Assembly (NCBI RefSeq): GCF_037414475.1
Contig: NZ_CP147913.1
Location: 1,426,001 to 1,490,000, forward strand
Length of the DNA stretch: 64,000 nucleotides
Direction: 5' to 3'
Source of the DNA: Myxococcus stipitatus
GTDB lineage: Bacteria; Myxococcota; Myxococcia; Myxococcales; Myxococcaceae
Made by a program: the position numbers and the translations under genes. The notes under the pieces were generated by a model. It ran no database searches. It was not told the DNA's origin and saw nothing but the letters and a program-made list of their open reading frames with translations. This document shows, piece by piece, positions 1 through 33,600 of this stretch. Position 1 is the first letter of the stretch. Each line of letters begins with the position of its first letter.

Positions 1-2138
1 CCACAGAAGCTGGCCGCCTGGAGCAGGAGCTAAATGAGAATTCACCGCCAAACCTCTCCATCGAAGAAGTGATGGGCCAACTTGTCGACGACACATACGA
101 CGGGAGTATCGAGGCTGGCGGCCACGAGCGAGCCCTACTGTTATCTACACTGAAAAGCCGTCTCCACGAAGCACTGTCGAATGGCGATGTGAAGTTTGCA
201 CATCAGTTCTGGACATCAGCAAAAACTTCCCGCTCTGCATTTTCATGGATATTGCTACTTGAAAGCCTCGTTCAAGAACGCATCTGGGAGCCAACACTTG
301 TCGATGAGTTGATCACGAAGAGGCCACTCTACCATCTATTTCCAGCACAGGAGATTCTTCACCGGGCAATCAGTTTGCGCTGGCAGTCCGCCCACATTGA
401 AGTGCGCGAGGACATTCTCAAGCGAATCTCGGAGATAGCCAAATCCCCTCTACTAAATGGACTTTATGCCGTTGCGCCAATTCTCACGGCAATTCCGCAA
501 GCATCTCAACCCGAGGCGCTTCGCGTTTACGACAAACTGTACCATCTGCGCGGATGGAATCCGCGGCCACAAAGAAAACAATCACACCATCCTGAATGGG
601 GCCTTGACTCTTCGGATATTATTGGGCTTGGCAAAGCTTCATGTACCGAGAAGGAATGGGAGGACATTCTCTCGCGCTCCGCTCTCAGCAGTGTGCATGG
701 GAGTGACGAAGCGGCATTCTCCCAATTTTTCGGCATTCTGCGACTGGCTATTTCACGGGGGCTCCCTTCTGCCGTCGAGACAAAGACGCATGTCGATATT
801 CTATCGATACTTCGGAGCGTGTTCGAGCGTATCGAAAGTCGTCGAAATGTCTCGCACTCAAGAGTGGTCACGGATTCGAAAGTTGCCAGCGTGCTGGCAC
901 CAACGGTGGATTTCGAACGCGAGGAAGTTGAGGCCATTGCAACCTGGGCGTTAGGGATTATGTGTTCGGTTGATGCTACGGCTCTCAATTCCGATCTAAA
1001 GCCTGTTCCAGTCGACGACACGCCAACAGCCACAACTCTTGAACCATGGAGGTCTGGATTATGGCTGATAGACGCAGCACTCGTTCATCCAGGGGCAATT
1101 GACAACTCTTGCTTGAGGGCTGCGCTTTTCGAAGAAGTACAACGGGTGACTGTTCAGCCATCCCCATCTGTTGCCTGGTACCTATTTTCAGCCTTGCGTC
1201 CATGGCACTGGCTTAGGCCTGACGACAGCAAGGCCTCCCTGGTCTGGGGGCTTTTGTCACAGAAGGTTACTGATCCCGGCGTTCTTCGTGTTGCGAGCAA
1301 GAATTTGATACCTCGCCTGTCTCCGGAACAGGGTGAGCAATTGGTGAGGCGGTGGCTGTCACTGGATAGAGATCCTGCCTCCCCCGACGCCGCAAAGTTT
1401 GTAGTGAGCCTCGGTGAGTTGATTGGAGCGTATTCTCTTCACCGCATCAATGGGGAACGCATGTTCTGGGCAGTTCTGCTTGAGGAGCTATTGGTCGCTT
1501 CACCTAGAACTGGAGTTCTTTCCGAACCCGAAACCTATGCTAAATATGTCTCGCAGTTGATGTTTGGCGCCAAGAGGTACTTCCTTGGGCAACCGCCTTC
1601 ATCAGCTCTTATTTCAGACTATGCGAATATGTTTGCAGCTTGTGCTCGCCAGTTCATGAAGGCTCTAGCCCGAGAACATATGGAGCACCTAATAATATGG
1701 GCCTTGGAGCCAGTGCTGCGCATGGCCAGTGAGGGGAAGAGTGAGTATCTGATGGAGTTCTGGAGTCAAATGAACCCAACCGTGTGCCGGATCATCCGGG
1801 ATGGACAATGGACAGACGCGCAATGGACAATCTTCAGGCTCCGCGACAGTCAACTGGCCGCCCGCTTGGGGGCTGACACCTTGATGGGAGTCGTGGAGGC
1901 CATTGCGGCCAAACATGTCGACCTGAGTACTCACTCAACTCATCTGCGCGAGAATGAAGAGATTGGACAGAGTTATCACTATGCAATGGAGTATGCTGTT
2001 GACCTGGCTGGGCAGTTGGGTACGCTCGGAACAACCACATCGCAAGTGAAGAATCGCCTCTTTGCGATACTGCAGTCCTGGGCAGGCTCCGGTCTGCACT
2101 CTGCGCTCGTTGCAGCCAGGAACATTCGAACGCGATAG
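1..2138 (+). CDS. Large protein of unknown function, 5' end outside the window
   Basis: The frame is open from base 3 to the TGA at 2136-2138 with no stop, so the real start probably lies left of the window; a GTG/ATG pair at 69-74 is only the first in-window start. About 712 codons are visible. The protein looks soluble and mostly helical, rich in Leu, Ala, Glu and Trp, with no signal peptide, membrane segment or NTPase motif in the visible part. It could be the helical C-terminal part of a larger protein such as a STAND-type or other NTPase, but that is inference from composition only. Base composition is clearly lower in GC than the rest of the window, with many A/T-ending codons, which suggests recent acquisition. 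It sits next to a transposase remnant. Function unknown. Confidence 0.8.
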   Translation, partial: TEAGRLEQELNENSPPNLSIEEVMGQLVDDTYDGSIEAGGHERALLLSTLKSRLHEALSNGDVKFAHQFWTSAKTSRSAFSWILLLESLVQERIWEPTLVDELITKRPLYHLFPAQEILHRAISLRWQSAHIEVREDILKRISEIAKSPLLNGLYAVAPILTAIPQASQPEALRVYDKLYHLRGWNPRPQRKQSHHPEWGLDSSDIIGLGKASCTEKEWEDILSRSALSSVHGSDEAAFSQFFGILRLAISRGLPSAVETKTHVDILSILRSVFERIESRRNVSHSRVVTDSKVASVLAPTVDFEREEVEAIATWALGIMCSVDATALNSDLKPVPVDDTPTATTLEPWRSGLWLIDAALVHPGAIDNSCLRAALFEEVQRVTVQPSPSVAWYLFSALRPWHWLRPDDSKASLVWGLLSQKVTDPGVLRVASKNLIPRLSPEQGEQLVRRWLSLDRDPASPDAAKFVVSLGELIGAYSLHRINGERMFWAVLLEELLVASPRTGVLSEPETYAKYVSQLMFGAKRYFLGQPPSSALISDYANMFAACARQFMKALAREHMEHLIIWALEPVLRMASEGKSEYLMEFWSQMNPTVCRIIRDGQWTDAQWTIFRLRDSQLAARLGADTLMGVVEAIAAKHVDLSTHSTHLRENEEIGQSYHYAMEYAVDLAGQLGTLGTTTSQVKNRLFAILQSWAGSGLHSALVAARNIRTR

Positions 2139-2600: not shown

Positions 2601-3068
2601 TCAGGCTTCTTCGTCGGGGAGAAGCATCCGTAGCAGCTCGTCGTCCGGTCCAAGTGGACGCCAGCCGATAGGCGGGGGATGGGCGAGAATGGCATTCCCT
2701 GCCCGGTCAACCCGATCCCTGTGGGTTAGCGGGGTGTAGGCGAACCAGGACCCGAGCCCCATTGCAGCTTCAACACGGGATGAATCCGCCAACACATCCG
2801 GCCAGCCACTAGGGAACCTCTCGGCCAGCTCGCGCACGAGGACGTCACGAATCAAGCGCGTGACCTGCTTGCGCTGCTCCGCCTCGAACATCAAGCCACT
2901 TAGAAGCTGTACAGCAGCAACGTCGTTGCCCAACTCGTCGGCCAGGACGAATAGCGGCACGGAAGGCCGCGCGTCGGCAAAGGCGGTCAGTGAGTCGTAG
3001 CCTCGCTCGCGAACCCGTTCGCACAGTCGAGCATTGATGTAACCCCGCCAAGCATCTCCGCCGCTCAT
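2601..3068 (-). CDS. Small conserved protein, paralogue of the next gene; candidate immunity protein
   Basis: 155 aa from ATG at 3068; a longer frame reaches 3125, but the start was set by alignment with the neighbour at 3160-3630. Both share WxGxxxARLxERVRERGYDSL near the N-terminus, a central KQVTRLIR/VRxxLVREL block, a GWPxVLxDxSR block, and end with GWRPLGPDDELLRMxLPDxE. No signal peptide or membrane segment, so probably cytoplasmic. It is a tandem duplicate lying downstream of a DUF2380 lipoprotein with a nuclease-like C-terminus; tandem small diverged paralogues behind a toxin-like gene are typical of immunity proteins, which is the basis for that suggestion. Biochemical function not recognised. 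Confidence 0.75.
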   Translation of the reverse strand: MSGGDAWRGYINARLCERVRERGYDSLTAFADARPSVPLFVLADELGNDVAAVQLLSGLMFEAEQRKQVTRLIRDVLVRELAERFPSGWPDVLADSSRVEAAMGLGSWFAYTPLTHRDRVDRAGNAILAHPPPIGWRPLGPDDELLRMLLPDEEA

Positions 3069-3159
3069 CGGCTGTTCTCCAGAATGACATCTAGATTGAC
3101 TAGTGGCGGCGCTACAATGTGGCACCCCGCCTCGCCTACGGACGGGGCGTCATCTCCTC

Positions 3160-3630
3160 TCAAGTTTCGCTGTCAGGGAGGAACATCCGGAGTAGCTCGT
3201 CGTCAGGACCGAGAGGACGCCAGCCGGGCGGGGGCGGATTGGCGAGGAGCGACGTCCTCAATTCGCGTGCGCGCCCCTTGTGCGAATCTGGGGCATACGC
3301 AATCCAGGGGCCAAGTGCCTTCGCGACGGCGAATCGACTCGTGTCGTCGAGCACTTTCGGCCACCCTTCAGGGAGGTTGTCCCATAGCTCGCGCACGAGT
3401 TGTCCACGAACCAAGCGGGTCACCTGCTTGCTCCGCACCGCCTCGACTACCAACCCATCGTACACCTGGACACCCGCAACATCGTCGGGTCCAAGCTCCT
3501 CAGCCAGTGCCTCCAATGATGCGGTGGGACGGGACTCGGCAAACGCGGTGAGCGAGTCGTAGCCACGTTCACGAACGCGCTCATACAAGCGGGCCTTCCA
3601 GTTGCCCTGCCACGAGCGTCCATCGGTCAT
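3160..3630 (-). CDS. Small conserved protein, paralogue of the preceding gene; candidate immunity protein
   Basis: 156 aa. The ATG at 3630 overlaps the TGA of the upstream lipoprotein gene (ATGA), so the two are translationally coupled. It shares the GYDSLTAFA, KQVTRLVRGQLVREL, GWPKVLDDTSR and GWRPLGPDDELLRMFLPD blocks with its downstream copy at 2601-3068, from which it is separated by 91 bp. No signal peptide, membrane segment or known catalytic motif. The overlap with a nuclease-like effector gene and the adjacent duplication suggest an immunity or accessory role (inference). An unrelated metabolic role cannot be excluded. Confidence 0.78.
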   Translation of the reverse strand: MTDGRSWQGNWKARLYERVRERGYDSLTAFAESRPTASLEALAEELGPDDVAGVQVYDGLVVEAVRSKQVTRLVRGQLVRELWDNLPEGWPKVLDDTSRFAVAKALGPWIAYAPDSHKGRARELRTSLLANPPPPGWRPLGPDDELLRMFLPDSET

Positions 3631-5162
3631 CGGCTGCTCCCTTTGGAGAACTTCATCGGGATGTCGTAGCTCCGCATGCGCCCCGCGACGATGTCCAGGA
3701 CCTGATTCCGCGTCAACATCCGGCCTGCCGTGATCTCAGCTTCGTGCAGGGCCTCCATGACCAGCCGATTCCACTCACCCGGCCAGATGCGCCCCAGCTT
3801 CCAGTTTCCCCCTCCGTGAATCGCCTCGTGGTGGGACCGCTCCAGTCGGACACAGAACTGGTCAATGTCCATGTCGCCCTTGAAGCCGCGCTGCTCGAAC
3901 CACTCCCTGTGCTCTTTCGGCATGACGTGGTGCTTCGGGGCCTCGGACATGCCCGCCCCTGTCTTCCCCGTCACATGCATGCCCCTCACCTCCGGACTGT
4001 CCCCCAGCGCGTCCTTCACGCCCTTGGGCAAGTCCTGATGGGCCTGCGCCATCAGCACCTGGCCACCGTGGATGCGAACGGCCGCGCTGACGGCGGGGAG
4101 GGAGATGACGCCCGCCTGTACGAGCCTGCGCATCATCTCCACCCATTCCGCGGAGACGACGATTCGTGAGCCCATCATGACGCCCCCCGAACTCATGACG
4201 AGCCCCACGCCGAGCGTCGCGGGAGCGGCCGGGGGCAGCCGTGGCAGCGACATCTTCAGCGTGGAAATCATGGTCAGCATCTCCACGAGTTGCGCCGCCG
4301 CGATGACCTTCTCTCCGAACTTCATGGTGGAGCGGGTGTCCGCATGCAGCTTGGCGAACTCCTGGGTCAGCTTCCCCATCAGCTCGGGCATCGCGGTCGC
4401 CGCCACCTCCACTCGCTCCGGGTCCATGGATTCAAGGTCCTTCAGAGTGGGCGCCATCAAGCCCTGAACCCGGTGCATGTCCGCGAACAGCTTCTCGGTG
4501 CTGCACATGGGGCAGTGGCGAAGCACGGCGTCCGAAAGCTGGAGGAAGTCAACCCAGGTGGCCAGCAGCAGAGTCCCGAACATCGCTGCTTGAATCTTGG
4601 GCCCTGTCAGTCGAAGCACCCCCAACTCCATGTCCGGGTCGCCCACTTCCGAGGCCACCTCCGTCAGCCCGGCCGCACTCCCGAGCGCACCACGGAGCCA
4701 CGTCACCTGATTGGAGCCGTGTTCGACGTAGCGCGTGAACACGCCTCCGGTGAGTCCCCAACCGCCAAGAGCGGGAGGCAGGTCCACCAGCTTCGTGAAT
4801 GCCCCTTCGACCCCATCCAGCGAACCCTTGACCTCCTCGATGGCGTCCAGGACTGCCTGTCGTGGAGGCGCGCCGCTCTGTGCTCCGCCTCCAACCGCTC
4901 CTGACGTGGTGCCAGATGCAGCCTTCGTCACGCCGTCGCGTGGCCCCAGGTGGCGCCAGAACGTTTGCCGCACCTTGGGTCCCGAGAAGGCGAGCGGCGG
5001 GGAGGCCATTGGCTCCGGCCGTTCGTCGGTCTGCCGCTCTCCCAACGCCGGGGGCGTCGTCTTGTGTGGAGCATAGAGGAACGCACCGCCACGGTCAGGC
5101 GCATGGGGAATCGAAACGCATCCCGAGGCAAGCAGCGCCACCAGCACAAGTTCAGCGCGCAT
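3627..5162 (-). CDS. DUF2380/TIGR02269-type lipoprotein with C-terminal HH-nuclease-like domain
   Basis: 511 aa. The start at 5162 was chosen because it gives a short lipoprotein signal (MRAELVLVALLASGC, lipobox LASGC); the open frame continues to 5330 without a plausible leader. The middle (about residues 80-350) is helical with several hydrophobic stretches. The last 100 residues hold a conserved block: KHHVMPKEHREWF at about 410, DMDIDQFC, then SHHEAIHGGGNW at about 443-454 and W..EWN. This fits the myxobacterial DUF2380/TIGR02269 lipoproteins, and the HH...H..H-G pattern resembles AHH/HNH-EndoVII nuclease domains used as toxins. The gene overlaps the outer-membrane gene upstream by 11 bp and the small paralogue downstream by 4 bp. 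Nuclease activity is inference. Confidence 0.78.
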   Translation of the reverse strand: MRAELVLVALLASGCVSIPHAPDRGGAFLYAPHKTTPPALGERQTDERPEPMASPPLAFSGPKVRQTFWRHLGPRDGVTKAASGTTSGAVGGGAQSGAPPRQAVLDAIEEVKGSLDGVEGAFTKLVDLPPALGGWGLTGGVFTRYVEHGSNQVTWLRGALGSAAGLTEVASEVGDPDMELGVLRLTGPKIQAAMFGTLLLATWVDFLQLSDAVLRHCPMCSTEKLFADMHRVQGLMAPTLKDLESMDPERVEVAATAMPELMGKLTQEFAKLHADTRSTMKFGEKVIAAAQLVEMLTMISTLKMSLPRLPPAAPATLGVGLVMSSGGVMMGSRIVVSAEWVEMMRRLVQAGVISLPAVSAAVRIHGGQVLMAQAHQDLPKGVKDALGDSPEVRGMHVTGKTGAGMSEAPKHHVMPKEHREWFEQRGFKGDMDIDQFCVRLERSHHEAIHGGGNWKLGRIWPGEWNRLVMEALHEAEITAGRMLTRNQVLDIVAGRMRSYDIPMKFSKGSSR

Positions 5163-6501
5163 GGTCCACCCCCAGGCCCACCGAGGCGAAGGCGCCAGGT
5201 CGCAAGGCCCCCTCGTTCGTCGGGAAGAGCAACGTGCCACCAGTCCCCATCGCGTAGAGCTTCCCGCCCAGGAACCTCCATCGGACTTCCGCTGCCCCCA
5301 GATAGCGAGCCCCGGGCCGTCCTGCTCCAACCGCGAGCCCCTTCAACGCGACTTCAACAGCCCGCTCCAGGAGCTGCACCGACACGCGACCATCCACATC
5401 GAAGCGGCCCCAGGTGAACGCTTCCGCGCCGAGTGACAGTATCAAGTGGCGCTGGAGCCCTCCGTAGCCGACGGCATCCCATGTCACCTCCGCTTCACCG
5501 AAGGCCGAGTAGCCATCCGGAAAGTGCGCCGCCGAGAGCTGCACAGGCTCGGGCCCCGCCGCCTGGAAGCGCGCCAACTCGTAGTCCGCGCCAACGAAGC
5601 CTTGACGGAATCCTCCACGCTGATGCCGTGCCTCCAGCCGCAGTCGGAGGTTGAGCTTCTCCGTGCGGGAATCCAGGCCAGCGCCCACGACAGCCCCCCA
5701 CGCGCCGCCCTCACTGGGGCGGCCACCCCATCCGGCAATCAGGTGGACCGCATACTCTGGCTCCATCACCACCCCTGCCGTCACATCCAGGTGCGCCAAC
5801 GTCACCGAGGGCGCGCGGCCTCCCGCCTTCCCCCAGTCATGCACGGCTGACAGGCCCAGCGTGTACCGACCTTGCGTCTCGGGCTGACCGAAGAGGATGT
5901 GCTCCAGGTCCAGGGAGAACTCCGCGCCCATGAGTCGCGCGCCCAACGCGTCCGACGTGAACGCCTCCACGTAGATGGGCCCCAGCGTGCCGGTGAGGAA
6001 TCCGCCAGCGGGGTGGTAGTTCGGATTGGTCCGGTTGGAGTAGCGGCGCACCAGATGCCCGGAGAGAAGCCTGTGTTCCTCCAGCGCGCCGAACCAGATT
6101 CCAAACGGCGCGGTGTTGGAACCGAACATGAGGCCGCGAATGAGCTGCCCCCAGTCCGAGAGTGAGTCCCAGTCCTCGCGACGCACCAGGGCACCACCAT
6201 CATTCCCGCCCCACAGGCGGAATCGAACCGGCGCCCCCAGGTTGACACCGAGTTCAGGGCCACCGTCGAGGATGAAGGTGGGGTCAACCTGGATGAAGCC
6301 TTCGTCATCGCCCACGCCAGCACGAGGCAGGAGCGACAGCGTCGTGGCCTCCAAGCGCATCAAGTAGTGCCACTCGCGAGCGGCTGGTTCGGGGGGAGGG
6401 ACTGACGGAGCTTCCTCGGGGCTGGGAGACTCCGAGGCCCACCCCAGCATGGGGAACAGCAACAGCAGTAATGCGGCAACTCCACTTCGCTTCCTGTGCA
6501 T
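5152..6501 (-). CDS. Outer-membrane beta-barrel-like protein of unknown function
   Basis: 449 aa from ATG at 6501 (an upstream extension to 6546 has no leader character). The N-terminus is a clear Sec signal (MHRKRSGVAALLLLLFPMLGWA, cleavage near residue 22), followed by a Pro/Glu-rich linker and then about 380 residues of alternating polar/hydrophobic strands rich in Gly, Tyr, Trp and Arg, as in outer-membrane barrels. No known porin signature was recognised. Its last codons overlap the start of the DUF2380 lipoprotein by 11 bp, so the two are probably co-transcribed and may act together at the envelope, for example as an export route (inference). Confidence 0.72.
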   Translation of the reverse strand: MHRKRSGVAALLLLLFPMLGWASESPSPEEAPSVPPPEPAAREWHYLMRLEATTLSLLPRAGVGDDEGFIQVDPTFILDGGPELGVNLGAPVRFRLWGGNDGGALVRREDWDSLSDWGQLIRGLMFGSNTAPFGIWFGALEEHRLLSGHLVRRYSNRTNPNYHPAGGFLTGTLGPIYVEAFTSDALGARLMGAEFSLDLEHILFGQPETQGRYTLGLSAVHDWGKAGGRAPSVTLAHLDVTAGVVMEPEYAVHLIAGWGGRPSEGGAWGAVVGAGLDSRTEKLNLRLRLEARHQRGGFRQGFVGADYELARFQAAGPEPVQLSAAHFPDGYSAFGEAEVTWDAVGYGGLQRHLILSLGAEAFTWGRFDVDGRVSVQLLERAVEVALKGLAVGAGRPGARYLGAAEVRWRFLGGKLYAMGTGGTLLFPTNEGALRPGAFASVGLGVDHAR

Positions 6502-8091: not shown

Positions 8092-9924
8092 CTAAGGCCA
8101 GCGCTCGACCAGATAGGCTGGAAGACTTCGCCCCACCACCGCCGCCCCGGGCTTGGAGTCCTCCCACTTCTCAACGTACCCCTCCTCTGCCAGCACGATG
8201 CAAACCGGGACAGTGCGACCATCAGGCAGGCGCGCCTCTGTGTAGCGTCCAACGAGGAACTCCCCGCCCGTCCACAAGTAGCCCGAGAGCCGCGCTCCCT
8301 CTGGGAGTCCCGGCAAGCTGCTGATGCGGACCACACCCGTGACAGGGCCGTCTGCGTAGGTGCCCGACTCCCCCATTGCTCCCGGTTGGCGAGCATCCAG
8401 GGTGAGCATGAACGATTGGCCCGGTCGCAAACGCAATCCGCGCTTGTTAGCCCTGTTGAACATGGCCTCTCTCGCCTCGGAGGGGCAGTCACCGGGCTCT
8501 GGCCGGACCTGGGCACCAGGGCACCCCATCGACAGCGCCGCGACGGCGGTCACACCTGCGCACGTCTTGAGGAACCCAGCCCACGGAGACGGAGGCCAGC
8601 TCGGGCGGGAGGCCAGAGCCTTCGGCTTCCTGGAGGTGGACTCGGCAGGAGGGGGCATCGGAACGGGAGCGCGCTTCACAGGAGAGCTTTCTTTCTCGAC
8701 AGGTGCAGGAGGGGGCAACGCTACCCCAGGGGACTCTGACAGGGGCGCTGGGGGCGCGGAATGAGGCTGTGAGGTAGCAAGACCAGCGTCCCCCACCATG
8801 GGGGCTGTAGCGGGCGCGCTGGGCCTCTCCGTGTTCGGGGAGGGGCGAAGGGCCTTGTATCCCGCGAGCGAGGCCACAACGAGCGCCAGGACGGCCACAG
8901 CACCCGCCACGCGCCGCCCTGGGGGTTGCTTCGACGCGGGGGTGGGGGCTTCTTCCAGAGGGAGGTCGTTGTGGGGTGCCTCGGAGGCAAGCGGAAGCTG
9001 GGGCCTCGGGGCATGAAGGGGCACCTTCCACGCCTCACCCTCTTCCGACAGCAACGCCTCCAGTTCGCGCCGCATGACTCCGGCCGTGGGGGCGCGCTTC
9101 TCGGGCTGGCGGTCGATGAAGTGCATGGCCGCCGCGCTCAGCGAGTCGGGCACGCGCGCGTTCAACGCATGGGGGGCGGGGGGAGGCCACTGGGCGCCCA
9201 CCATGGTTCGTGGCGCTGCGCTCTCGGGATGGGGATTCGTCAGCACGTCGTAGAGGCAGACGCCCAACGCGTACACATCGTCCGTTGCCTTGAAGTCGTA
9301 GCGAGCGTCGTGTTCGTCCCCATGTTCACGGAGGAAGCGCGCCGCCTCGGGAGAGCGATAGCGGCGAGTGCCGGGGGGCAAGGGCGTGTCCGTCAGCTCC
9401 GGCGCGAGCATGTAGTCCCCCGCGCTGAAGTCCAGGACGAAGGGTTCGCCATCCGCCGCGCGCACGAGGATGTTCCCCAGCTTCAAGTCACGGTGAAAGA
9501 CGCCGCGCGCATGAAGATGGGCCAAGGCTCCCGCGAGCTTGCCGAAGACCCGGACAACTTCTTGCGCGGTGGGGTGCGTCTTCTCGACCCACTCCCCCAG
9601 CGTGTAGCCCTCGACGTAGTCCACCGCGACGTAAAGCCAGCCCTCGGACGGGTGAGGCCAACGCCCATGAGCGTGAACCCGCACGACATTGGGATGCCCG
9701 CTCACCTGGGACAGACAGACCATCTCCCGCAACAGTCGCGCGTCGGTCTGCTCCGCGTCTCCACTACTGGCCCGGTGCATGGCCAGCTTCATCGCGAAGC
9801 GGTGGCCTTCCTTCTCCACGAGGTAGACGGCGCCAAAGCTCCCCGCCCCCAGCGGCTTCACGATGCGCCAGCCGTCCACCGTCTGCCCGGGTTGCAGGTG
9901 TGCCGGGCTCAGTCCAATCAACAT
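8092..9924 (-). CDS. Ser/Thr protein kinase with membrane segment and extra C-terminal domain
   Basis: 610 aa. Kinase domain about residues 18-295: glycine loop LGAGSFG at 25-31, Lys46, complete HRDLKLGN loop at 144-151, but the metal-binding DFG reads DFS at 165-167. A transmembrane segment follows at about 343-362 (VAVLALVVASLAGY), then a Pro/Ala-rich linker. The last 150 residues form a second unit starting with a hydrophobic stretch and a lipobox-like AALSMGC, followed by a probable beta-rich periplasmic domain. This looks like a kinase fused to what was once a separate lipoprotein (inference). It starts 11 bp after the DUF2381 gene, so the two are probably one operon. Confidence 0.88.
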   Translation of the reverse strand: MLIGLSPAHLQPGQTVDGWRIVKPLGAGSFGAVYLVEKEGHRFAMKLAMHRASSGDAEQTDARLLREMVCLSQVSGHPNVVRVHAHGRWPHPSEGWLYVAVDYVEGYTLGEWVEKTHPTAQEVVRVFGKLAGALAHLHARGVFHRDLKLGNILVRAADGEPFVLDFSAGDYMLAPELTDTPLPPGTRRYRSPEAARFLREHGDEHDARYDFKATDDVYALGVCLYDVLTNPHPESAAPRTMVGAQWPPPAPHALNARVPDSLSAAAMHFIDRQPEKRAPTAGVMRRELEALLSEEGEAWKVPLHAPRPQLPLASEAPHNDLPLEEAPTPASKQPPGRRVAGAVAVLALVVASLAGYKALRPSPNTERPSAPATAPMVGDAGLATSQPHSAPPAPLSESPGVALPPPAPVEKESSPVKRAPVPMPPPAESTSRKPKALASRPSWPPSPWAGFLKTCAGVTAVAALSMGCPGAQVRPEPGDCPSEAREAMFNRANKRGLRLRPGQSFMLTLDARQPGAMGESGTYADGPVTGVVRISSLPGLPEGARLSGYLWTGGEFLVGRYTEARLPDGRTVPVCIVLAEEGYVEKWEDSKPGAAVVGRSLPAYLVERWP

Positions 9925-9935
9925 GGAAAGCGGTT

Positions 9936-10874
9936 CTAGAATGCAAAGCGAGGGATGAGAAGGCGCCGCCCGCCCTCACTGTCGCGCAGCTCCAAGCGGA
10001 GGGACGCACCTTCCGGCCAGTTGGGTGCCCCAGTTTCCACCACCACGAGGGCAGTCTCGCCTGACGAAATCTGAGCCTCCCTTACGCGCACTGCGACCAC
10101 GTTGACGCGCTCTCCGCTAGCCACCACGAAGAGCCGGGCCTCCACGGGCGTCCAGGGTTTCGAGCCGGTGTTACGAACCCGAAGGGCAACAGCCCCCCAT
10201 CCACTCGCAACATACCTAACCGCTTCTTCGGGTATGAGTCCGTCACCAGACCCACGGACGATGGTTCTTCCAGCCCTGTAGCCCTCTTCTCGCAGAAGAC
10301 CCGTGAGGATCATCCCAGCCGGACCACTTGCGGCGCTACGGGTACGAAGCGTCTCCACCTCGGCATCCTTGGCTGAACAGGCCGCGCGCACCTCATCCAG
10401 TTCTGCCTGAATCGCTTCTGCAGTACGTGGCAGGCGCGACACCATCACCTGGGCATCCACCTCGGACGGGTGCGTGACGAGCGAGAACACGACGCGGGAG
10501 GGGGCAGCACCATCCGCGAAGGGAATGGTCAGCTCGACACCCCCTCCAGGTCCCAAGTCCAGCGCGGGCTTGAGCACGATGGTCCGTGACGTGGCCTCGA
10601 ACAACGCGAGTCGGCGCCCCGAGTCCCCAAGCACCACCGCGTCCCGGTCAACCGGGGAGTCAAACTCCAGAGTGGTGAGGTAGTCCGGAGCAACGTGCAG
10701 CTCCACGGGCTTGTCAGCGGTGGCGACCGAGAGCGACACCCGGCGCCGCTTCATCTCACGCGCGCGGGGGACCTCCTGGGGCTGCGCCGTGGCCGTGAAC
10801 CCCGTCAGCAGCACGAGGGGCAAGGCAAGTCGGGTAAGCGACTGGAGCGCGCGCAGGGGACTTCCGAAGGGCAT
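9936..10874 (-). CDS. DUF2381 (TIGR02268) family protein
   Basis: 312 aa from ATG at 10874, chosen because it gives a signal peptide (MPFGSPLRALQSLTRLALPL... ending near TATAQ); the open frame reaches 10931. After the signal the protein has an RRRVSLSVA / ELHVAPDYLTTLEFD start, a central coiled region around AELDEVRAACSAKDAEVETL, and a beta-rich end finishing RLLIPRF. This matches the Myxococcus paralogous family DUF2381/TIGR02268, whose biochemical role is unknown. It probably acts in the periplasm or envelope. Its 11-bp spacing from the kinase suggests a shared function, perhaps as a sensor or partner for the kinase's periplasmic domain (inference). Confidence 0.82.
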   Translation of the reverse strand: MPFGSPLRALQSLTRLALPLVLLTGFTATAQPQEVPRAREMKRRRVSLSVATADKPVELHVAPDYLTTLEFDSPVDRDAVVLGDSGRRLALFEATSRTIVLKPALDLGPGGGVELTIPFADGAAPSRVVFSLVTHPSEVDAQVMVSRLPRTAEAIQAELDEVRAACSAKDAEVETLRTRSAASGPAGMILTGLLREEGYRAGRTIVRGSGDGLIPEEAVRYVASGWGAVALRVRNTGSKPWTPVEARLFVVASGERVNVVAVRVREAQISSGETALVVVETGAPNWPEGASLRLELRDSEGGRRLLIPRFAF

Positions 10875-11156
10875 GGCGGAACCGTACCAGGAAGCCCACG
10901 ACTGCCAGACGTTCTCCGCTCGGCCAGGCACAAAGGGGCCGGGGTTTTCTATGCCTCGCGTCCCTCAAAACCACGGCGGATCGAAGCCCAGCCCCTTCAC
11001 AGTGTTCTCTTCAGGAAGTGCTCAAAAACACCCCCTCGCGCTGAACACATCGCCACTGGGGCCGCGCGTTTTTCCACTGAGTTTTCTCAGCGTGTACCAC
11101 CGCCAAGCAAGGTGTCGAGGGGCCACCCATCGGAAATCCGAACTGGGGGGCCACCC

Positions 11157-11414
11157 TGAACCACTCCCGGAATCCGCACCATCTATCAAGGGCTGGGCAC
11201 CATCAGCCGTGACCGGAAATGGCGTGGAAATGGTCGCGTGAACCATTCGCGGAAACCGCACCATCTATCAAGGGCTGGGCACCATCAGCCGTGACCGGAA
11301 ATGGCGTGGAAAATGGTCGCGTGAACCACTCGCAGAAACCGCACTCATTTACTTGGGGTCAGCGCACCGACAAACGCGGCCAAAGAAGCTCGGTTGAGCC
11401 AGTCGCAGAAAGCG
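11157..11414. repeat. Tandem 82-bp direct repeats with shorter degenerate copies
   Basis: Nearly identical units start with TGAACC at 11157, 11239 and 11322 (periods 82 and 83 bp); the third is only about 23 bp long, and a degenerate half-copy (TGAGCCAGTCGCAGAAAGCG) lies at 11395-11414. Each unit contains CACCATCTATCAAGGGCTGG and GTGACCGGAAATGGCGTGG. Within them a shorter motif of the form CGGAAWNCG recurs. They lie directly upstream of the winged-helix gene. They could be replication or regulatory repeats, or the multi-repeat end of a lost IS21-type element. The rest of the gene-free stretch 10875-11446 shows nothing else that I can support. Confidence 0.8.
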
Positions 11415-11446: not shown

Positions 11447-11695
11447 ATGCTTGAACAGGTTGAGCAGTACCGCCCCCACGTCGTCGCCGCTCTCACCAAC
11501 TCCGCTCCCCAAGGGCTCACCGTGAAGGAGCTGTGCGGCGCGCTCGGAGCGGGAGAGCAGGCCATCCGCCGTTGCCTCGCGGCCCTCATGCTGGCTGGCG
11601 TGGTGCGCGAGTCAGCGAGGTACACGCCCGGCGCTCGTGGCGCGGTGCCCCGGGCCTACAGCCTTGCAGCGTCGCCCACCGGAGGAGCGTCGTGA
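11447..11695 (+). CDS. Small winged-helix DNA-binding protein
   Basis: 82 aa from ATG at 11447, preceded by a good ribosome site (GAGGAG, 8 bp upstream); the longer open frame starting at 11219 runs through repeats and is unlikely to be coding. The residues HVVAALTNSAPQGLTVKELCGALG, followed by EQAIRRCLAALMLAGVVRE and a basic wing, look like a winged helix-turn-helix of the type found in small phage and plasmid regulators. It lies between the 82-bp repeats and the octamer cluster and directly precedes the primase-polymerase, so it may control replication or copy number of the integrated element (inference). Specific family not recognised. Confidence 0.7.
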   Translation: MLEQVEQYRPHVVAALTNSAPQGLTVKELCGALGAGEQAIRRCLAALMLAGVVRESARYTPGARGAVPRAYSLAASPTGGAS

Positions 11696-11713
11696 TGGGG
11701 GCTTCGTTGGTCC

Positions 11714-12024
11714 TGCCCCGCCTGCCCCGCATCCAGAACACACCGGGGCGCAAAGCGGGGCACCCCGTGAGCCGGAAAAGCGCAGACATATCAACAGCTT
11801 GGACGCCCCCTTCGCCTCCCTGCCCCGCCTGCCCCGCCTATTTGAGAGAAGAGAGAGAGAAAGAGAAAGACATACCCCCCACAGGGCAATTGAAGACATC
11901 TAACCCCTCTCATTCCCCTTCTGTATCTCAGCGTGTGTTCCGGTGAAAAAGCGGGGCAGCGGGGCAGGTCGCCAGATTCCCTAGTGATTCTCGCAAGTTA
12001 ATCCTGCCCCGCTTTCTGCCCCGC
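11714..12024. other. Cluster of nine TGCCCCGC octamers, origin-like
   Basis: TGCCCCGC occurs on the plus strand at 11714, 11723, 11821, 11830, 12005 and 12017, and as GCGGGGCA at 11755, 11951 and 11959. Several copies form tight doublets 8-9 bp apart. Between them lies a purine-only tract (GAGAGAAGAGAGAGAGAAAG, about 11844-11870) and AT-richer DNA at 11870-11945. The cluster fills the 355-bp gap between the winged-helix gene and the primase-polymerase gene. Iteron-like repeats next to a replication protein suggest an origin or initiator-binding region. A short frame starting with ATG at 11695 crosses the region but reads only repeat-encoded PCPACPA, so it was not called. Confidence 0.55.
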
Positions 12025-12050
12025 CACCGAACCCGCCCCGGTCCACCCCT

Positions 12051-14846
12051 TTGAATCCCACCCGGCAGCCATCCAGCTCGCCGCGATACCCCTCTCTTGC
12101 CTTTGGATGTCCCTTGAAAGCTGCCGACTCGAACTCGACTCACATCCTGGAGGCCGCGCTGGATTACGCCGGGCGTGGCTGGCACGTCATCCCCTGCTTC
12201 GAGCCCACGCCAGCTCCCTCGGGGGCGCTCATCTGCACGTGCCCCGGTGGAGCGCAGTGCAGTAGCACAGGCAAACACCCCCGCACCCGCAATGGAGTGA
12301 AGGACGCCACGACTGACGAGGCCCAGCTTCGCACGTGGTGGCAGCAATGGCCTCATGCAAACGTCGCCATCGCCACGGGAGCCCTCTCCGGAATTGATGT
12401 GGTGGATGTCGACGCGAAGGCTGGTGGCGTCGCGGAAATGGAGAAGCAGAAGACCGAACACGGCGACCTTCCACCGACCATCGTGGCCCAAACCAGCGGC
12501 GGGGGTTACCACGCCTACTTCCGCTATACGGGACTGTTGTCGAGGTCGGCCACCCTCGCCCCTGGAGTCGACACGCGCGGGAATGGTGGCTACGTCATCG
12601 CGCCCCCGAGCCTCCATCGCACTGGCGAGCGGTATTCGTGGGTGGAAGGCTCGACCCCGGCCCAGGCTTCTCCAGCAGACGCCCCCGCATGGATTCGCGA
12701 GGCCGCCCGAGCCAAGCGCACCCGCTCCACGCCCGTTGAAGGGACGCCGGTAGAGAGTACCTGGCAGGCGCCCACCCGCGACGGGCTCACCGAGGACCAG
12801 CTCTGGAAGCGGTGGCAACGCACGGGCGACCTCAAGCGCGCGGAAGCCGTGAAGCGCATGAAGGAGGGCCAGCCCTTGTTCCCGTCTGGGGAGCACCACT
12901 ACAACATCTGGGCCCTCCTCTCGTACCTGCGATTCAAGACCCCGGAAGCGTCAGACGAAACGGTGTTGTGCCTGCTCGCCCCGTCCGTCACGGCGATGGC
13001 TTGCACGGACCATGACGCCGCGCACGTTGCGAACCGCCTTCGTAGCGTCAATGAGCAGTACGGCGAGGCCCAGGCCCAGTGGGAGAAGGATGCCGCCTTG
13101 TTCGGGAGCTTGGGCCGTTCGCGCTCGTCAACCGAGGCCACGCCCCCGATTGACGTTGACGCTTGGATGACGGCGCCGGGTTACGCCATCCATGACGGTC
13201 AGTCGCTCGGCATCTTCAAAGTCACCGACAAGGACAAGCTCGCCACGGTCGCCGCCGCCCCCATCAACATCACCGAGACGGGCGAGGATGAACACCGCAC
13301 CTGCTACGTGACGGTGCAGTGGATGTACGGGGGCGATGTCCGTACCGAGACGATGCCGCGCGCCAAGGTTTCAGGGGGCGAAATCCTGGAGCTGTCGGCC
13401 CGGGGCGCGCCGCTCACCAGCAGCAACAGCAAGAAGGTCCAGGACTTCCTCCAGGCGCAGGAGCAGCACAACCACGCGCGGCTGCCTCGGGTGCGCATCT
13501 TCACGCAAAGCGGTTGGTCTCAGGACATGCGGAGCTTCGTCGTCGGGCGTCAGGTCATTGGCGAACCCGGCCGCGTCATCATGCCCGGTGAAGCCGCCTT
13601 CCTCGACGCGCTCAAGTCGCGTGGCTCGGCGGATGAACACCTGCGGCTGACGCTCGCCGTGCGCGACAGAAGCCCCTCCGCGGAGATGGCTTGGGCGTCG
13701 GGCTTCGCGGCCCCTCTGTTGCGGCTGTTGGAGCTGCGAAGCATGTGCTTGTCCATCTGGGGCGCGTCCGGGACGGGGAAATCCGCCGTGCAGGCCACCA
13801 CCACCTCGTTGTGGGGGCGCCCCTCGGGCCTCAAGGTCAGCGGGGATGTTTCGTCCGCCGCGTTGCAGGGCGAGCTGTCCCGTCATCGCGACCTGCCCAC
13901 CTGGATTGACGACACCCAAGTCACTCGCGAGGGAATGACGAACCTCATGGCCTACATCGTGGGGACGGAAACGAGCGGCGCGCGAGCCACGCAAACCGGA
14001 GAGCTGCGCGCGCGGAAGACCTGGCGCTCGCTGGCCTTCATCTCGGGAGAGAAACCACTGTTGCAGATTGGTGGTGCGGCGGGAGCGAAGAACCGGACGC
14101 TGGAGGTGTGCGCTCAACCGCTGGGGGACGCGGGCCTCGCCACCCGGACGCACCAGGGGTTGGAGCGGCACCACGGACACGCGGGCCCCACCTTCATCCG
14201 CGCACTCATGGAGCACTACATCGCTCAAGAACGGCTCGAGGTTCTGCGCGAGTTGCACCGACAGCTTGCCAGCAAGATGGCGACGGAGACGACGGAGCAG
14301 GCCCGCTACGCCGCGCTCCTGGTGCTGGCTGACCGGCTCGCTCGTGTCCACATCTGCGGCGAGGACGAAGCACGCGCCCAGGTTGCAGCGCTCGACGCGG
14401 GCCAAGCTTTCTGCGCGGCTGTGTTGAAGGAGTCCCGCGAGACGAAGACGACCGCCGACGCGGCTTACGACTACATCATGAACTTCGTCGCATCCAACTG
14501 GCTGGGCTTTGAAAGCAAGGCCACCATCCACCGCCCCGGATTGGTAGTGGACGAGCAGGATGCCAGCGGACGGCGCGTCGTGGCCATCTTCCAGACGGCG
14601 ATGCAGGAAATCGCGCGGGAAGGTCGCTTCGACACCCGGCAGGTGATGACGGAGCTTGCGGCCAAGGAACTGGTGCTCAAGGAAGACGGGCACCTCACTC
14701 GCAAGGTGTCCGTCGATGGCAAGCGAGTGCGGGCCTACTGGCTGGTCCTCGACGAAGAGAAGGTGGAGGCGGGGAATTCTCGCGGCGGGGCCCCTCATAC
14801 GTCACCTGCGCCGCATCACGGACGGATGGGAGGCATGCACCGATGA
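12051..14846 (+). CDS. Bifunctional primase-polymerase / helicase-like replication protein
   Basis: Up to 931 aa; the first in-frame start is TTG at 12051 and the true start is uncertain because the Pro/Ser-rich first 30 residues may not be translated. The N-terminal domain (about 30-215) matches the Prim-Pol family: a cysteine/histidine cluster (CTCPGGAQC..GKHPR, 62-78), the metal-binding D-V-D at 119-121 and GYH at 152-154. The C-terminal half contains a Walker A motif GASGTGKSA (571-579) and a Walker B-like TWIDD at about 617, in a DUF927-like helicase arrangement. Such fusions start replication of plasmids, prophages and satellite elements. The gene overlaps the excisionase-like gene by ATGA and follows an origin-like repeat cluster. 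Confidence 0.85.
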   Translation: MNPTRQPSSSPRYPSLAFGCPLKAADSNSTHILEAALDYAGRGWHVIPCFEPTPAPSGALICTCPGGAQCSSTGKHPRTRNGVKDATTDEAQLRTWWQQWPHANVAIATGALSGIDVVDVDAKAGGVAEMEKQKTEHGDLPPTIVAQTSGGGYHAYFRYTGLLSRSATLAPGVDTRGNGGYVIAPPSLHRTGERYSWVEGSTPAQASPADAPAWIREAARAKRTRSTPVEGTPVESTWQAPTRDGLTEDQLWKRWQRTGDLKRAEAVKRMKEGQPLFPSGEHHYNIWALLSYLRFKTPEASDETVLCLLAPSVTAMACTDHDAAHVANRLRSVNEQYGEAQAQWEKDAALFGSLGRSRSSTEATPPIDVDAWMTAPGYAIHDGQSLGIFKVTDKDKLATVAAAPINITETGEDEHRTCYVTVQWMYGGDVRTETMPRAKVSGGEILELSARGAPLTSSNSKKVQDFLQAQEQHNHARLPRVRIFTQSGWSQDMRSFVVGRQVIGEPGRVIMPGEAAFLDALKSRGSADEHLRLTLAVRDRSPSAEMAWASGFAAPLLRLLELRSMCLSIWGASGTGKSAVQATTTSLWGRPSGLKVSGDVSSAALQGELSRHRDLPTWIDDTQVTREGMTNLMAYIVGTETSGARATQTGELRARKTWRSLAFISGEKPLLQIGGAAGAKNRTLEVCAQPLGDAGLATRTHQGLERHHGHAGPTFIRALMEHYIAQERLEVLRELHRQLASKMATETTEQARYAALLVLADRLARVHICGEDEARAQVAALDAGQAFCAAVLKESRETKTTADAAYDYIMNFVASNWLGFESKATIHRPGLVVDEQDASGRRVVAIFQTAMQEIAREGRFDTRQVMTELAAKELVLKEDGHLTRKVSVDGKRVRAYWLVLDEEKVEAGNSRGGAPHTSPAPHHGRMGGMHR

Positions 14847-15091
14847 GCCACGACACTTGTCACAAGGTCCCTGCGCTCGTGTCCGAGTCTCTCCCCAGGC
14901 TGGCTGACTTCCTCACCGTGGAAGAAGCCGCCGCGCTCCTGCGCGTGAACCGGAAGACGCTCTATGAGGCCATCCGGCTCGGGCAGGTGCCTGGAGTCAT
15001 GCGCCTCGGAAGAGTCCTCCGCATCCGCCGAGTCGCCCTGGTACAGTGGCAGTCGGGTAACAGCGGTCCTGCGCTCGGAGAGAACCGATGA
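14843..15091 (+). CDS. Excisionase-like MerR/HTH_17 DNA-binding protein
   Basis: 82 aa. The core FLTVEEAAALLRVNRKTLYEAIRLGQVPG, then a basic RLGRVLRIRR, is the standard helix-turn-helix of excisionase-family (HTH_17) proteins, which bend DNA at att sites and control the direction of recombination. Its ATG overlaps the primase stop (ATGA at 14843-14846) and its stop overlaps the integrase start (15088-15091), so all three proteins are probably made from one message in fixed proportion. A pure repressor role is possible, but position and size fit Xis. Confidence 0.82.
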   Translation: MSHDTCHKVPALVSESLPRLADFLTVEEAAALLRVNRKTLYEAIRLGQVPGVMRLGRVLRIRRVALVQWQSGNSGPALGENR

Positions 15092-16311
15092 GCGTCAGAC
15101 TGCGGAAGTGGAAGACGAAGGAGAACAAGGTGCAGGATGCGTGGTGGGTGGACGTGAAGTACCAGCACCCTGACGGGAGAGTGGAACGCATCCGCAAGGC
15201 GTCTCCGCTCAACACCCGTCGCGGCGCAGAAGAGTACGAGCGTCAGGTCCGCCACGCGCTTCTGACTGGCACCTTCGGAAAGGAGAAGGAGCCAGAGAAG
15301 AAGGGGGAGGAAGCGCCACTCACGTTGGCGAAGTTCGTCCCCCGCTTCGCGACGTACAGCGAAAACAACGACAAACACTCCACTGTCGTCACCAAAAAGC
15401 AGCATCTGGATGACCACATCACCCCGTTCTTCGGCGAGATGGTTCTGGACAGCATCGGCCCGGAACAAATCGAGGACTTCAAAGCTGCAATGAAGAAGAA
15501 GCCCTCGGCATCTCGCGCGCGCAAGGAGGCCCCCACAAAGGCGGCCATTCGCAAGCGCAAGGACGGAGAGCCCAGGACGTTGAGCAAGAAGTTCATCAAC
15601 AACGTCCTGTCAACGTTCAGCAAGCTCCTGGCCGTCGCTGTTGAGCAGAAGGTCATCCGCGCCGCGCCATACGTGAAGCCCTTTGGGAAGTTGCCCAAGC
15701 CCGGCTTCGACTTCCTCACCTTCGAGGAGGCCGAGCGGCTCATCGACGCGGCCGAGTCCGAATGGAGGACGTTGATTCTCGTCGCCATCAAGGCAGGGCT
15801 CCGGGAGGGAGAGCTTGTCGGGCTCCAATGGGGCGACCTGGATTTGCAGCGTCGCAAGCTCCAGGTTCGCCGAACCGCTTGGCGAGGCGTGGAGGACTTG
15901 CCCAAGGGCGGGCGTGAGCGAACCGTGGACCTGCCAGCTTCGGCAGTGGAAGCCCTCAAGGCCCACCGGCACCTGCGCGGTCGCTACGTCTTCTGCCAGG
16001 ACGACGGTGCGCCGCTCACGGAGGGCCTGATGAAGTGGCCGCTTCGTCGTGCCCTCCAACGGGCGGGGATTCTCCGCGAAGCAGGCCGCATCGGCTGGCA
16101 TGACCTACGGCACACCTACGCCAGCCACCTTGCGATGCGGGGCGTCCCGATGAAGGTCATCCAGGAGCTGATGGGCCATGCGGACCTCAGCACGACGATG
16201 CGGTACGCCCATCTCGCACCAGGAGCCCGGGAAAGCGCGGTCCAGCAGCTCGACCAGCCCGCGCCTCACCTCCACCTCGAACCGCCCCGAGACGCCGTAG
16301 GGGCACACTGA
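15088..16311 (+). CDS. Tyrosine recombinase / phage-type integrase
   Basis: 407 aa. An N-terminal arm-type domain (about 1-60, basic, WWVDVKYQHPDGRVERI) is followed by a SAM-like core-binding domain (about 75-200). The catalytic domain carries the first Arg in GLREGELVGLQW (about 238), HDLRHTYASHL (about 338-348), the GHADLSTTMRYAH block (about 362-374) and its Tyr nucleophile, so all catalytic residues appear present. Its 3' end is about 70 bp from the 3' end of ssrA, in convergent orientation, a usual arrangement for integrases that use the tmRNA gene as attB. Its start overlaps the excisionase-like gene by 4 bp. Confidence 0.93.
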   Translation: MSVRLRKWKTKENKVQDAWWVDVKYQHPDGRVERIRKASPLNTRRGAEEYERQVRHALLTGTFGKEKEPEKKGEEAPLTLAKFVPRFATYSENNDKHSTVVTKKQHLDDHITPFFGEMVLDSIGPEQIEDFKAAMKKKPSASRARKEAPTKAAIRKRKDGEPRTLSKKFINNVLSTFSKLLAVAVEQKVIRAAPYVKPFGKLPKPGFDFLTFEEAERLIDAAESEWRTLILVAIKAGLREGELVGLQWGDLDLQRRKLQVRRTAWRGVEDLPKGGRERTVDLPASAVEALKAHRHLRGRYVFCQDDGAPLTEGLMKWPLRRALQRAGILREAGRIGWHDLRHTYASHLAMRGVPMKVIQELMGHADLSTTMRYAHLAPGARESAVQQLDQPAPHLHLEPPRDAVGAH

Positions 16312-16372: not shown

Positions 16373-16420
16373 CACTCTGTGGAGGCGGCGGGAATCGAAC
16401 CCGCGTCCGAAAGCCTTCCG
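16373..16420. other. Candidate attachment site (attR) at the ssrA 3' end
   Basis: The T-arm and acceptor end of tmRNA (containing GGGAATCGAACCCGCGTCC on the plus strand) lies beside a tyrosine integrase gene, a common attB location. I did not find a second copy of this segment elsewhere in the window, so the partner site attL either lies left of position 1 or has decayed. The assignment is by position only. Confidence 0.35.
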
Positions 16421-16742
16421 TCCTTCGACCCTACGTGCGTAGTCCGCGCTTTGCTACGTCCCCAAGACTCCCACGGACGGGATTCCTAGAGCCGGTCCTG
16501 GAAAGATCTCACCGCCTCGGGTCCAGGCACCCTTGGCGGCCAGCCCGCATTCTGACGGTCGATCCCAACCCCACGGGCCGAGAGCTGGGGGACCGCGCAC
16601 TAAAAGCTGTTGTTAGGCAGCCAGCGCGAGCTCAACGTTGTCGTTGGCTTTTGTGTCTTTGCCCGGTGGGATTTACGAGCTACCTGACAAGCTCGGCACG
16701 CGTCTCGAACTTCCTTGCCCCCGTCGAAACCAGGTCGCCCCC
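16381..16742 (-). ncRNA. ssrA: Transfer-messenger RNA (tmRNA)
   Basis: The minus strand starts GGGGGCGACCTGGTTTCGAC (5' end at 16742), the standard tmRNA start, and ends with a T-arm GGTTCGATTCCCGCCGCCTCC, whose last bases pair with the 5' end. The tag reading frame is at 16613-16648: GCC AAC GAC AAC GTT GAG CTC GCG CTG GCT GCC TAA, giving ANDNVELALAA followed by stop. The RNA rescues stalled ribosomes and tags the nascent protein for ClpXP-type proteolysis. The genome does not appear to encode the terminal CCA at this 3' end (the plus strand reads TGTGGAGG). SmpB and a probable SspB adaptor are encoded at 54474-54965 and 53920-54441. The 221 bp upstream (16743-16963) must hold its promoter, but no convincing boxes were seen. 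Confidence 0.96.
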
Positions 16743-30636: not shown

Positions 30637-33600
30637 GGCTGAGCGCTCGAGCAACAACGGAAGCCCACCGACGCGGACGCCGTCTCCGGGTCGCTGTACT
30701 TCACCGCGCTGCAGCGGGAGTCGGCATATGGCTCGTTGAAGGCTCCACCCTTCTGGATGGTGCCTCGGCGCTCGATGCGGGTCTCCGTCCACTCCGCCAC
30801 GTTGCCGGAGAGGTCGGCCACGCCGTAGCCCGGCGAGACGCACTGACTGAACGTCCCGGACGCCGCGATGGCAGGCACGATGCCATGCTGGGGAATCTTC
30901 GTATTGCACGTGCTCTGAAGGTAATCGTTCCCGTACGCGAAGCGCGCGTTGCCCGGTCCCTTGCATGCCTTCTCCCACTCGTCCTCTGTGCAGAGCCGCT
31001 TCTTCTCCGCCCCGCACAGCTCACGTGCCTGCGCCAAGGTGACGCCCACTCGAGGGTTCGCTCCCTTTTGATTGGGGAACTCGAACTCGTCGACACAGAA
31101 GGAGTTCACCATCACGTTCTCGCTGGGACGCTCGTCCACCTTGGCGAGCTCGTCGTCGCGAACCTTGCCTCGCTTGAAGGAACCCCCGCTCACCAACCGC
31201 ATGCCGTCCGGGCACTTCTCCGACAGGGCCACGACGAGCGGAAGTGGCGCTTCCTTGGCACCCTGCCGCGCCATCGCGCCCGAGGACGGCACCGCCGGCT
31301 TCGCCGCGCTTCGGGACTTCCAGTAGTTCAAGAACAGATAGCCGCCACCCGCGCCCAACGCGAGGCCACCCACGGTCAGAACCGCTATCCAGACGAACGC
31401 GGAACGGCGGCGCGCGGCCGAAGACTTCTGGGAGCGACTGCCCCGCTGCTTCGGCGCGATGCGAGCCCCTGAACGTGCCCCCGACATGCTTGGGTCGAAG
31501 TCGAGCGCACGAGGAGCGGTGCGCGCCCCCGACATCGTCGGCACGGTCTCAAGGGTGCGTGCCGTGCGGATGCTCGGCACGACGGGGGCCTCCAGCGTCC
31601 GCGACAGAGGGCGCGCACCCGACGTCGAAGGCGAGGACTCCAGTCCGCGCGCCGACCGTGCACCGGAGACAGAGGGAGCCGACTCGCTCGCCGCCGGGTC
31701 CTGGCCGCGCGACGACCCGCGCGACTGAGCGGAGGGCATTGGCCCGGAGGCCCGGGGCGCGGGTCCCCCACCGCGAGCAGCGGACTCCGTGCCAGAGCGT
31801 CCACTGAGGGATGGCTCGTCTCCGGACCGTGACGACGCACCACCCGCGCGGCCGCTGAGCGAAGACTCGTCTCCGGACCGCGACGACGCACCACCCGCTC
31901 TGCCGCTAAGCGAAGGCTCATCTCCGGACCGTGACGACGCACCACCCGCTCTGCCGCTAGGCCAAGGCTCGTCTCCAGACCGTGACGACGCACCACTCGC
32001 GCGGCCATTGAGTGAAGGCTCGTCTCCAGACCGTGACGACGCACCACCCGCTCTGCCGCTAAGCGAAGGCTCATCTCCGGACCGTGACGACCCACCACCC
32101 GCTCTGCCGCTGAGCGAAGGCTCATCTCCGGACCGTGACGACCCACCACCCGCTCTGCCGCTGAGCGAAGGCTCGTCTCCGGACCGTGACGACGCACCAC
32201 TCGCGCGGCCACTGAGTGAAGGCTCGTCTCCAGACCGTGACGACACACCACCCGCGCGGCCGCTGAGCGACGGCTCGTCGCCCGTGCGCGACGACGCACC
32301 ACTCGCGCGGCCACCGTACGGCGATTCCGATGCCGACCTCGCGCCCTCGGAACCCGAGCGCCCGGAGGGGGCTGACTCCCTCGCGGACTCTTGCGCGGAG
32401 CGACCACCGTACGGCGACTCGGCACCAGCGCCGCGACCACTGGGTCCTGATTCCGACGAAGCGCGCCCACCTTGCGCTGCTTCCGTGGCGGCACGAATCG
32501 CCCCTCCGGTGATGAAGGGCATCGCCTGCTCGGTGAGGCGCTGATGGGACGCGTTGGGATTCGCACCGATGATGGCCGCGAGCGTCGCCGCATCCAGCGG
32601 CTGGGTCGCATCCGGCGGAGGTGGCTCCTCCTCGACGTGCGGCGCTGCCACCGGTGGCGGCGCCTTGGGCGCGGCGGCATTCACGATGCCGGTGGGAATC
32701 GGCAACATGTCCGTGGGCACCGGCGGAGGAGGCCGCGCGGACATCCTCACCGCGGCGGCCTGCGCCGACCCTGGAGGCGGCGGCACACTGCGCACCCGCG
32801 TGGTCACCGCCGCGGGCGACCGCGCAATGATGTTGGCGAACTCCGCGTGCAGCTCCCCCGCCGACTTCGGCCGGGCCAGCGGATTGATGTTGAGCGCGCG
32901 TCGATAAAGCGCCTCGAAGGACGTGGGCAGGTCCGAATGCAGGGACGAGAGCCCCGGCACCACGCCATCCGTCGGCACCAACCCGGTGATGAGCTCTCCC
33001 ATCACCACGCCAAGCGAGTACACATCCATCCGCGTGTCGAGTTCGCCCCCCGCCACATACTCGGGCGCGACGTAGACATCCGCGCGGTGCCCCTTCTGGG
33101 CCTGCACGAAGGGCAACTGCGGAACGGCGAGCCCCAGCCCGTAGTCCGTCACCTTCAGCAGGTCCGGCAGGACGATGACGTTCTCCGGCTTGAGGTCGGA
33201 GTGCGGACCGAAGCGGTGCGCGGCGTCCAGTGCCGCGGCCATCTGCGCGAGCAGCGGCTCCACGTCCTTCAGCGAGAAGAGCTGCCCTCGCGAGGCGCGC
33301 TGCTCCATCATCCGCCGCAGCGTCATGCCCTCCAGCAACTGCATGGTGAAGAAGGGCCGCTCGCCGTCGAGCCCCTCCTCGTAGACGCGCAGCAGATTGG
33401 GGTGGTTGAGCTTCTTGCCCACCCGCATCGAGAAGGAGAACTGCGTGCGCTCCTCGGGCTGCTGGACGAGCCTCGGGTGCACGGTCTTCAGCGCGACCTC
33501 GACGTCGATCTCCTCGTCCTGGGCGCGGAAGACGAAGCCCATGGGACCCGAGCCCACGACTTCCTTGATGGCGTAGCGCCCGGCGATGACGTCCCCTGGT

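Follow-up and report, generated by a model that had tools for sequence, protein, structure and literature searches.

A putative iteron origin of replication exchanged together with its primase-helicase initiator among myxobacterial islands

An octamer cluster in an island at ssrA

The window, a stretch of 64,000 nucleotides of Myxococcus stipitatus contig NZ_CP147913.1, contains nine exact copies of the octamer TGCCCCGC within 311 bp (11714-12024). The cluster sits in an approximately 20-kb tyrosine-integrase island in ssrA, the tmRNA gene (Table 1). The integrase gene lies beside the intact target gene, and a displaced 3′ fragment of the target was found at the far end, as is characteristic of tRNA/tmRNA islands. 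This fragment (attL, G000:C1:1422242-1422315), which carries a 24-bp core identical to that of attR, lies 3.7 kb to the left of the window and 20.1 kb to the left of attR, next to a chromosomal gene that also borders this hot spot in two relatives. An attL inside the window was considered and rejected, as no stretch of at least 13 bp from the ssrA 3′ end was found repeated there in the same orientation.

Table 1. Features of the octamer cluster and its surroundings (window positions)
Feature	Position	Strand	Remarks
Winged-helix-like protein (wHTH), 82 aa	11447..11695	+	PHROG 1368 transcriptional regulator, E 8.7e-5
Exchangeable replication cassette	11672..14903	none	similarity to type B ends at 11671 and restarts at 14904
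Outer direct doublet, TGCCCCGCcTGCCCCGC	11714..11730	+	first octamer poorly conserved
Arm B, inverted, CGGGGCGCAAAGCGGGGCA	11744..11762	-	octamer 11755-11762 invariant in 8 elements
Inner left doublet C, TGCCCCGCcTGCCCCGC	11821..11837	+	both octamers invariant in 7 elements
Spacer between the inverted inner doublets	11838..11950	none	AT 0.54, top 0.8% of 113-bp windows
27-nt all-purine tract, GAGAGAAGAGAGAGAGAAAGAGAAAGA	11844..11870	+	conserved in type A; pyrimidine tract at this place in type B
Inner right doublet D, inverted, GCGGGGCAGCGGGGCA	11951..11966	-	
Outer right doublet E, TGCCCCGCtttcTGCCCCGC	12005..12024	+	38 bp from D in 8/8 elements
Initiator, Prim-Pol + DUF927 + C-terminal HTH_56	12114..14846	+	Pfam PF09250 2.6e-44, PF06048 1.2e-33, PF18662 2.5e-16
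AlpA/excisionase-like HTH_17 protein	14843..15091	+	Pfam 2.6e-13, TIGR01764
Tyrosine integrase	15088..16311	+	PF00589 5.7e-33
attR, 24-bp core at the ssrA 3′ end	16377..16400	none	repeated at attL
ssrA (tmRNA), integration target	16379..16742	-	ARAGORN

Six octamers lie on the plus strand at 11714, 11723, 11821, 11830, 12005 and 12017, and three on the minus strand at 11755, 11951 and 11959. An earlier note on this DNA had counted the nine exact copies correctly, although its statement that five of the six plus-strand doublet members were exact was slightly off, because all six are. It had also described copies flanking a purine-only tract, and a position between a gene for a small DNA-binding protein and a primase-polymerase gene; the tract proved to be real, no other purine or pyrimidine run in the window being as long, and both neighbours were found as described.

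The genome of 10,311,252 bp contains 1,046 copies of TGCCCCGC (517 + 529). At this density 0.032 copies are expected per 311 bp (Poisson P for nine or more, approximately 8e-20), and the genome-wide count suggested in the earlier note thus showed the octamer to be concentrated here (9 versus 0.03 expected). The full 64-kb window was not enriched (13 copies versus 9.0 from shuffles), and 9 of its 13 copies fell within the 311 bp. Apart from a frame-shifted variant of TGCCCCGC, no other 8-mer in the window had at least 8 copies per 311 bp, and the next-ranking 8-mer clusters were tandem arrays. The exact spaced doublet TGCCCCGC-N-TGCCCCGC occurs at only two places in the genome, both of them in the cluster.

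Tandem repeats were observed elsewhere in the window at 31797-32312 (51-bp unit, 10 copies) and 60868-60984 (45-bp unit, 2.5 copies). Upstream of the winged-helix gene, 11157-11344 holds 2.3 copies of an 82-bp tandem repeat, with four occurrences of the related 23-bp motif TGAACCACTCGCGGAAACCGCAC; this repeat, a possible promoter or operator, is also present in the islands of genome G113. Rfam, promoter and terminator scans gave nothing useful.

The gene downstream of the cluster encodes an archaeo-eukaryotic primase (Prim-Pol) fused to a helicase of the Cch/SaPI-Rep type (DUF927), and its helicase half matched the solved structures of SCC Cch (PDB 5dgk) and SaPI Rep (PDB 8tch). The protein combines the DUF927 AAA+ core with the C-terminal HTH of Cch, as is typical of Cch-type helicases, but scored only 35.9 bits against the 700-bit cut-off of the stand-alone Cch equivalog NF047345. 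Judged from these matches, the initiator is a distant relative of stand-alone Cch, fused to Prim-Pol. Its orthologues in the family are 70-77% identical. In an alignment of five orthologues, the helicase motifs Walker A (GxSGxGKS) and Walker B (IDD) were invariant, and primase and helicase retained intact catalytic motifs. By comparison with these orthologues, TTG at 12114 is a more likely start than 12051. The orthologues begin with GTG or TTG at the site matching 12114, which leaves the octamers outside coding sequence; the locus thus groups several short repeats in non-coding DNA beside an initiator gene, as expected of an iteron origin. The winged-helix protein on the other side had only sub-threshold Pfam winged-helix matches.

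Conservation in related islands and exchange of the replication cassette

The earlier note had proposed searching related elements for the same repeats, and these were indeed found upstream of the same primase gene. Octamers precede the initiator gene in seven islands, and an eighth copy of the cluster is an orphan. The orthologous islands of six other genomes kept the five core octamer sites and their fixed geometry. Across seven elements, pairwise identity was 96.5% in octamer columns versus 72.8% in the other columns, and in a circular-shift control 1 of 305 shifts was as good. The two left pairs (B-C) are spaced by a fixed 58 bp (56 bp in the orphan) and the spacing of the two right pairs (D-E) is likewise fixed; the AT/purine-rich middle spacer, at 107-113 bp, is the sole spacing that varies. 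TGCCCCGC is rich in GC and abundant across the genome, as a functionless repeat produced by chance or by GC/codon bias would be, but such a repeat is refuted by the Poisson value together with the conservation of position, orientation and spacing in eight genomes, and we regard this explanation as practically excluded.

The origin pattern was present in 8 of 195 genomes of the phylum and HTH_56 in 8 of 147 genomes of the class, with both together in six genomes (Fisher 6e-8). The exceptions were G061, where the contig ends, G106, with a decayed primase, G073, in which the primase is disrupted by an IS, and G114, with the orphan origin. In the latter copy (L103, 11294-11587) the octamers are decayed and the initiator gene is absent. 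Prim-Pol/DUF927 homologues outside the clade had no comparable upstream octamer cluster, and viral, plasmid and phage collections yielded nothing closely related to the origin or to the fused gene.

The winged-helix gene has a wider distribution than the TGCCCCGC octamers. We distinguished islands of type A, with the Prim-Pol/DUF927 initiator of the window and TGCCCCGC, from islands of type B, with another initiator and the repeat TGACGGA. In 17 related islands of type B (for example L153, G113:C1:2972500-2981000), the winged-helix gene is followed by a gene for a 371-aa primase-like protein with only a weak PHROG match and, where the contig extends far enough, by a DUF5906 helicase gene. TGACGGA occurs there in 4-9 copies, as inverted pairs around a pyrimidine tract, in the same place as the TGCCCCGC cluster; TGCCCCGC itself was absent from the DNA between the winged-helix and primase-like genes in all 17. 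Conversely, the seven type A islands have 4-9 copies of TGCCCCGC within 420 bp and lack TGACGGA. The repeats are therefore specific to the cognate initiator by comparison, iteron type matching initiator type in 24 of 24 islands (Fisher 2.9e-6, a value that overstates independence, since the 24 elements are related and represent only about 3-4 independent exchanges).

DNA similarity to the window stopped and resumed at the type B borders given in Table 1 in the islands G113 a, b and c and in G102, and at 11666 and 14843 in G107 and G118. The integrase tree required four changes of type, of which at least three were forced by well-supported branches. As judged from these comparisons, the putative origin and the initiator gene move together, and the winged-helix, alpA and integrase genes stay. 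The winged-helix gene forms the upstream border of the replication cassette, and its homologues adjoin both cassette types.

The octamers might instead be an operator of the adjoining winged-helix protein, which is small, DNA-binding and encoded next to them, or of AlpA. However, the winged-helix proteins of some type B islands are 89-97% identical and have a different iteron and no TGCCCCGC nearby, whereas type A homologues that are only 63-65% identical (G109, G073a) adjoin TGCCCCGC; AlpA is common to both cassette types. The exchange comparison thus largely refuted the winged-helix protein as the cognate binder, and an operator of either protein seems highly improbable. Since iteron type follows the initiator across exchanges and near-identical winged-helix genes adjoin different iterons, we assigned TGCCCCGC to the primase-helicase, which should be its cognate protein.

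These results slightly favour a family of myxobacterial islands with plug-in cassettes, in which an origin and its cognate initiator are swapped as a unit while integrase and cargo stay, with borders that coincide or almost coincide in the islands compared (where the winged-helix gene ends and within the 5′ part of alpA). Such exchange could permit several islands per cell by escape from iteron-based incompatibility. G061 and G073 each contain both cassette types. Although their initiators belong to different families, both cassettes have inverted iteron pairs around a purine-pyrimidine tract, and this suggests a common role of the tract as a site for melting, priming or a host factor.

Proposed origin function and known systems

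The sequences themselves show the cluster, how it is conserved, the fixed spacing of its arms and its joint exchange with the initiator. The iteron-origin reading put forward in the earlier note gained support from the enrichment in the genome, the repeats in relatives and the exchange comparison. With a probability of roughly 0.83, 11714-12024 is the replication origin of the island, with TGCCCCGC the iteron of the downstream Prim-Pol/DUF927/HTH_56 initiator. On sequence grounds it is best read as an iteron origin working like those of SaPI/PICI/P4, placed 5′ of the initiator gene rather than 3′.

After excision of the island by integrase and AlpA, the C-terminal HTH of the initiator would bind the inverted octamer pairs; SaPI kin of the initiator bind iterons through their C-terminal domain (PMC7581432). 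One helicase assembly would form on arms B and C and a second, facing it, on arms D and E, and the two would melt the intervening purine/AT-rich spacer. Primers would be made by the Prim-Pol domain and extended in both directions by the host polymerase. An AT-rich region adjoining iterons is expected of such an origin, and the spacer, with its AT content standing against an element mean of 0.37, is probably the melting region. Because the iterons lie 5′ of its gene, the initiator may also repress its own expression.

Several points count against the origin reading: the location on the 5′ side of the initiator gene, in contrast to the 3′ position of SaPI/PICI origins; the GC-rich octamer and the moderate AT enrichment of the spacer (0.54); the lack of a comparable octamer cluster upstream of homologous Prim-Pol genes outside the clade; and the small number of independent exchanges. 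The octamers lie directly upstream of the initiator gene and might serve solely as an operator for autoregulation by the initiator, with the origin elsewhere in the island; the linkage to initiator type would hold equally for an operator. However, nine sites in 311 bp with inverted pairs, a conserved purine/AT-rich spacer and fixed arms exceed what an operator needs, the layout matches known satellite origins (PMC6092414), and the part of the island within the window has no other 8-mer repeat cluster. An operator role alone is therefore unlikely, and an operator role is in any case compatible with that of an origin.

Among the closest known systems, the SaPI/PICI origins (SaPIbov1, EcCICFT073) serve integrative islands whose initiator helicase recognises short repeats, and SaPIbov1 Rep is a relative of the DUF927 helicase domain (PMC7581432). 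In the published PICI layout two sets of iterons flank an AT-rich region (PMC6092414); the same is seen in the window, where the proposed origin would follow this plan with its arms mirrored. It differs in not lying immediately 3′ of rep, in the fusion of Prim-Pol to the helicase, in its GC-rich octamer and in gene order. The helicase and HTH_56 half resembles SCC Cch, and the putative SCC origin is likewise an iteron cluster beside the gene; in contrast, Cch is a stand-alone protein that lacks Prim-Pol, the tests of the SCC origin concerned Cch2, which belongs to a different helicase family, and the SCC iterons (AAGTG) are downstream. Phage P4 alpha is also a single primase-helicase-winged-helix initiator that binds repeats (PMC4234260, review), but it combines a Toprim primase with an SF3 helicase and is unrelated in sequence and layout.

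In the archaeal Prim-Pol plasmid pRN1, a small DNA-binding gene similarly precedes a Prim-Pol/helicase/winged-helix initiator (ORF904), but this protein has an SF3 helicase, and the origin is a downstream stem-loop without iterons (PMC4234260). A structured RNA or single-stranded DNA element with hairpins, in place of duplex iterons, was considered for the window as well, where the single strand folds better than shuffles (z -4.4). Against it, the stable pairs are merely the identical inverted octamers, only chance matches and no Rfam family were found, the middle spacer varies in length, and the type B cassette keeps pairs of a different iteron rather than a common fold. We consider this alternative very improbable compared with duplex iterons.

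In the literature searched, no origin was found that serves a fusion of Prim-Pol with a Cch-type helicase. In line with the earlier note, which knew no published iteron with this octamer, the string was found in no paper, a weak negative. The islands offer a natural exchange series, with two initiator-origin pairs on one island backbone, for dissecting origin recognition by self-loading primase-helicases.

Island cargo and the ssrA locus

The cargo comprises two kinases, a DUF2381 protein, a lipoprotein weakly similar to SitA6, two small genes and a large STAND-like NTPase. The lipoprotein (2601-5330, minus strand) matched TIGR02269 at 7.7e-4, below the cut-off, and the two related small genes may be its immunity genes. 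SitA-like lipoproteins are toxins of the kind that sets kin recognition in social bacteria, and the cluster is a candidate origin for a mobile island with such cargo. The 1,644-aa STAND-type NTPase (L096, 3204-8138, running into window 1-2138) is weakly similar to Avs4 and is a possible defence gene. Among the part of the island's ORFs that was scanned there were no phage structural genes, and neither a capsid, a terminase nor a link to a helper phage was seen in the island; the element might be unable to move.

The pair of Ser/Thr kinase and DUF2381 genes (8092-10931, minus strand) enters different tRNA/tmRNA sites with islands; as these genes recur in islands of relatives beside other tRNA genes, they travel with the island. 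Displaced ssrA 3′ fragments were numerous at the ssrA locus in the 27 genomes of the genus that were compared, and in G102 up to about 80 kb of islands has accumulated there.
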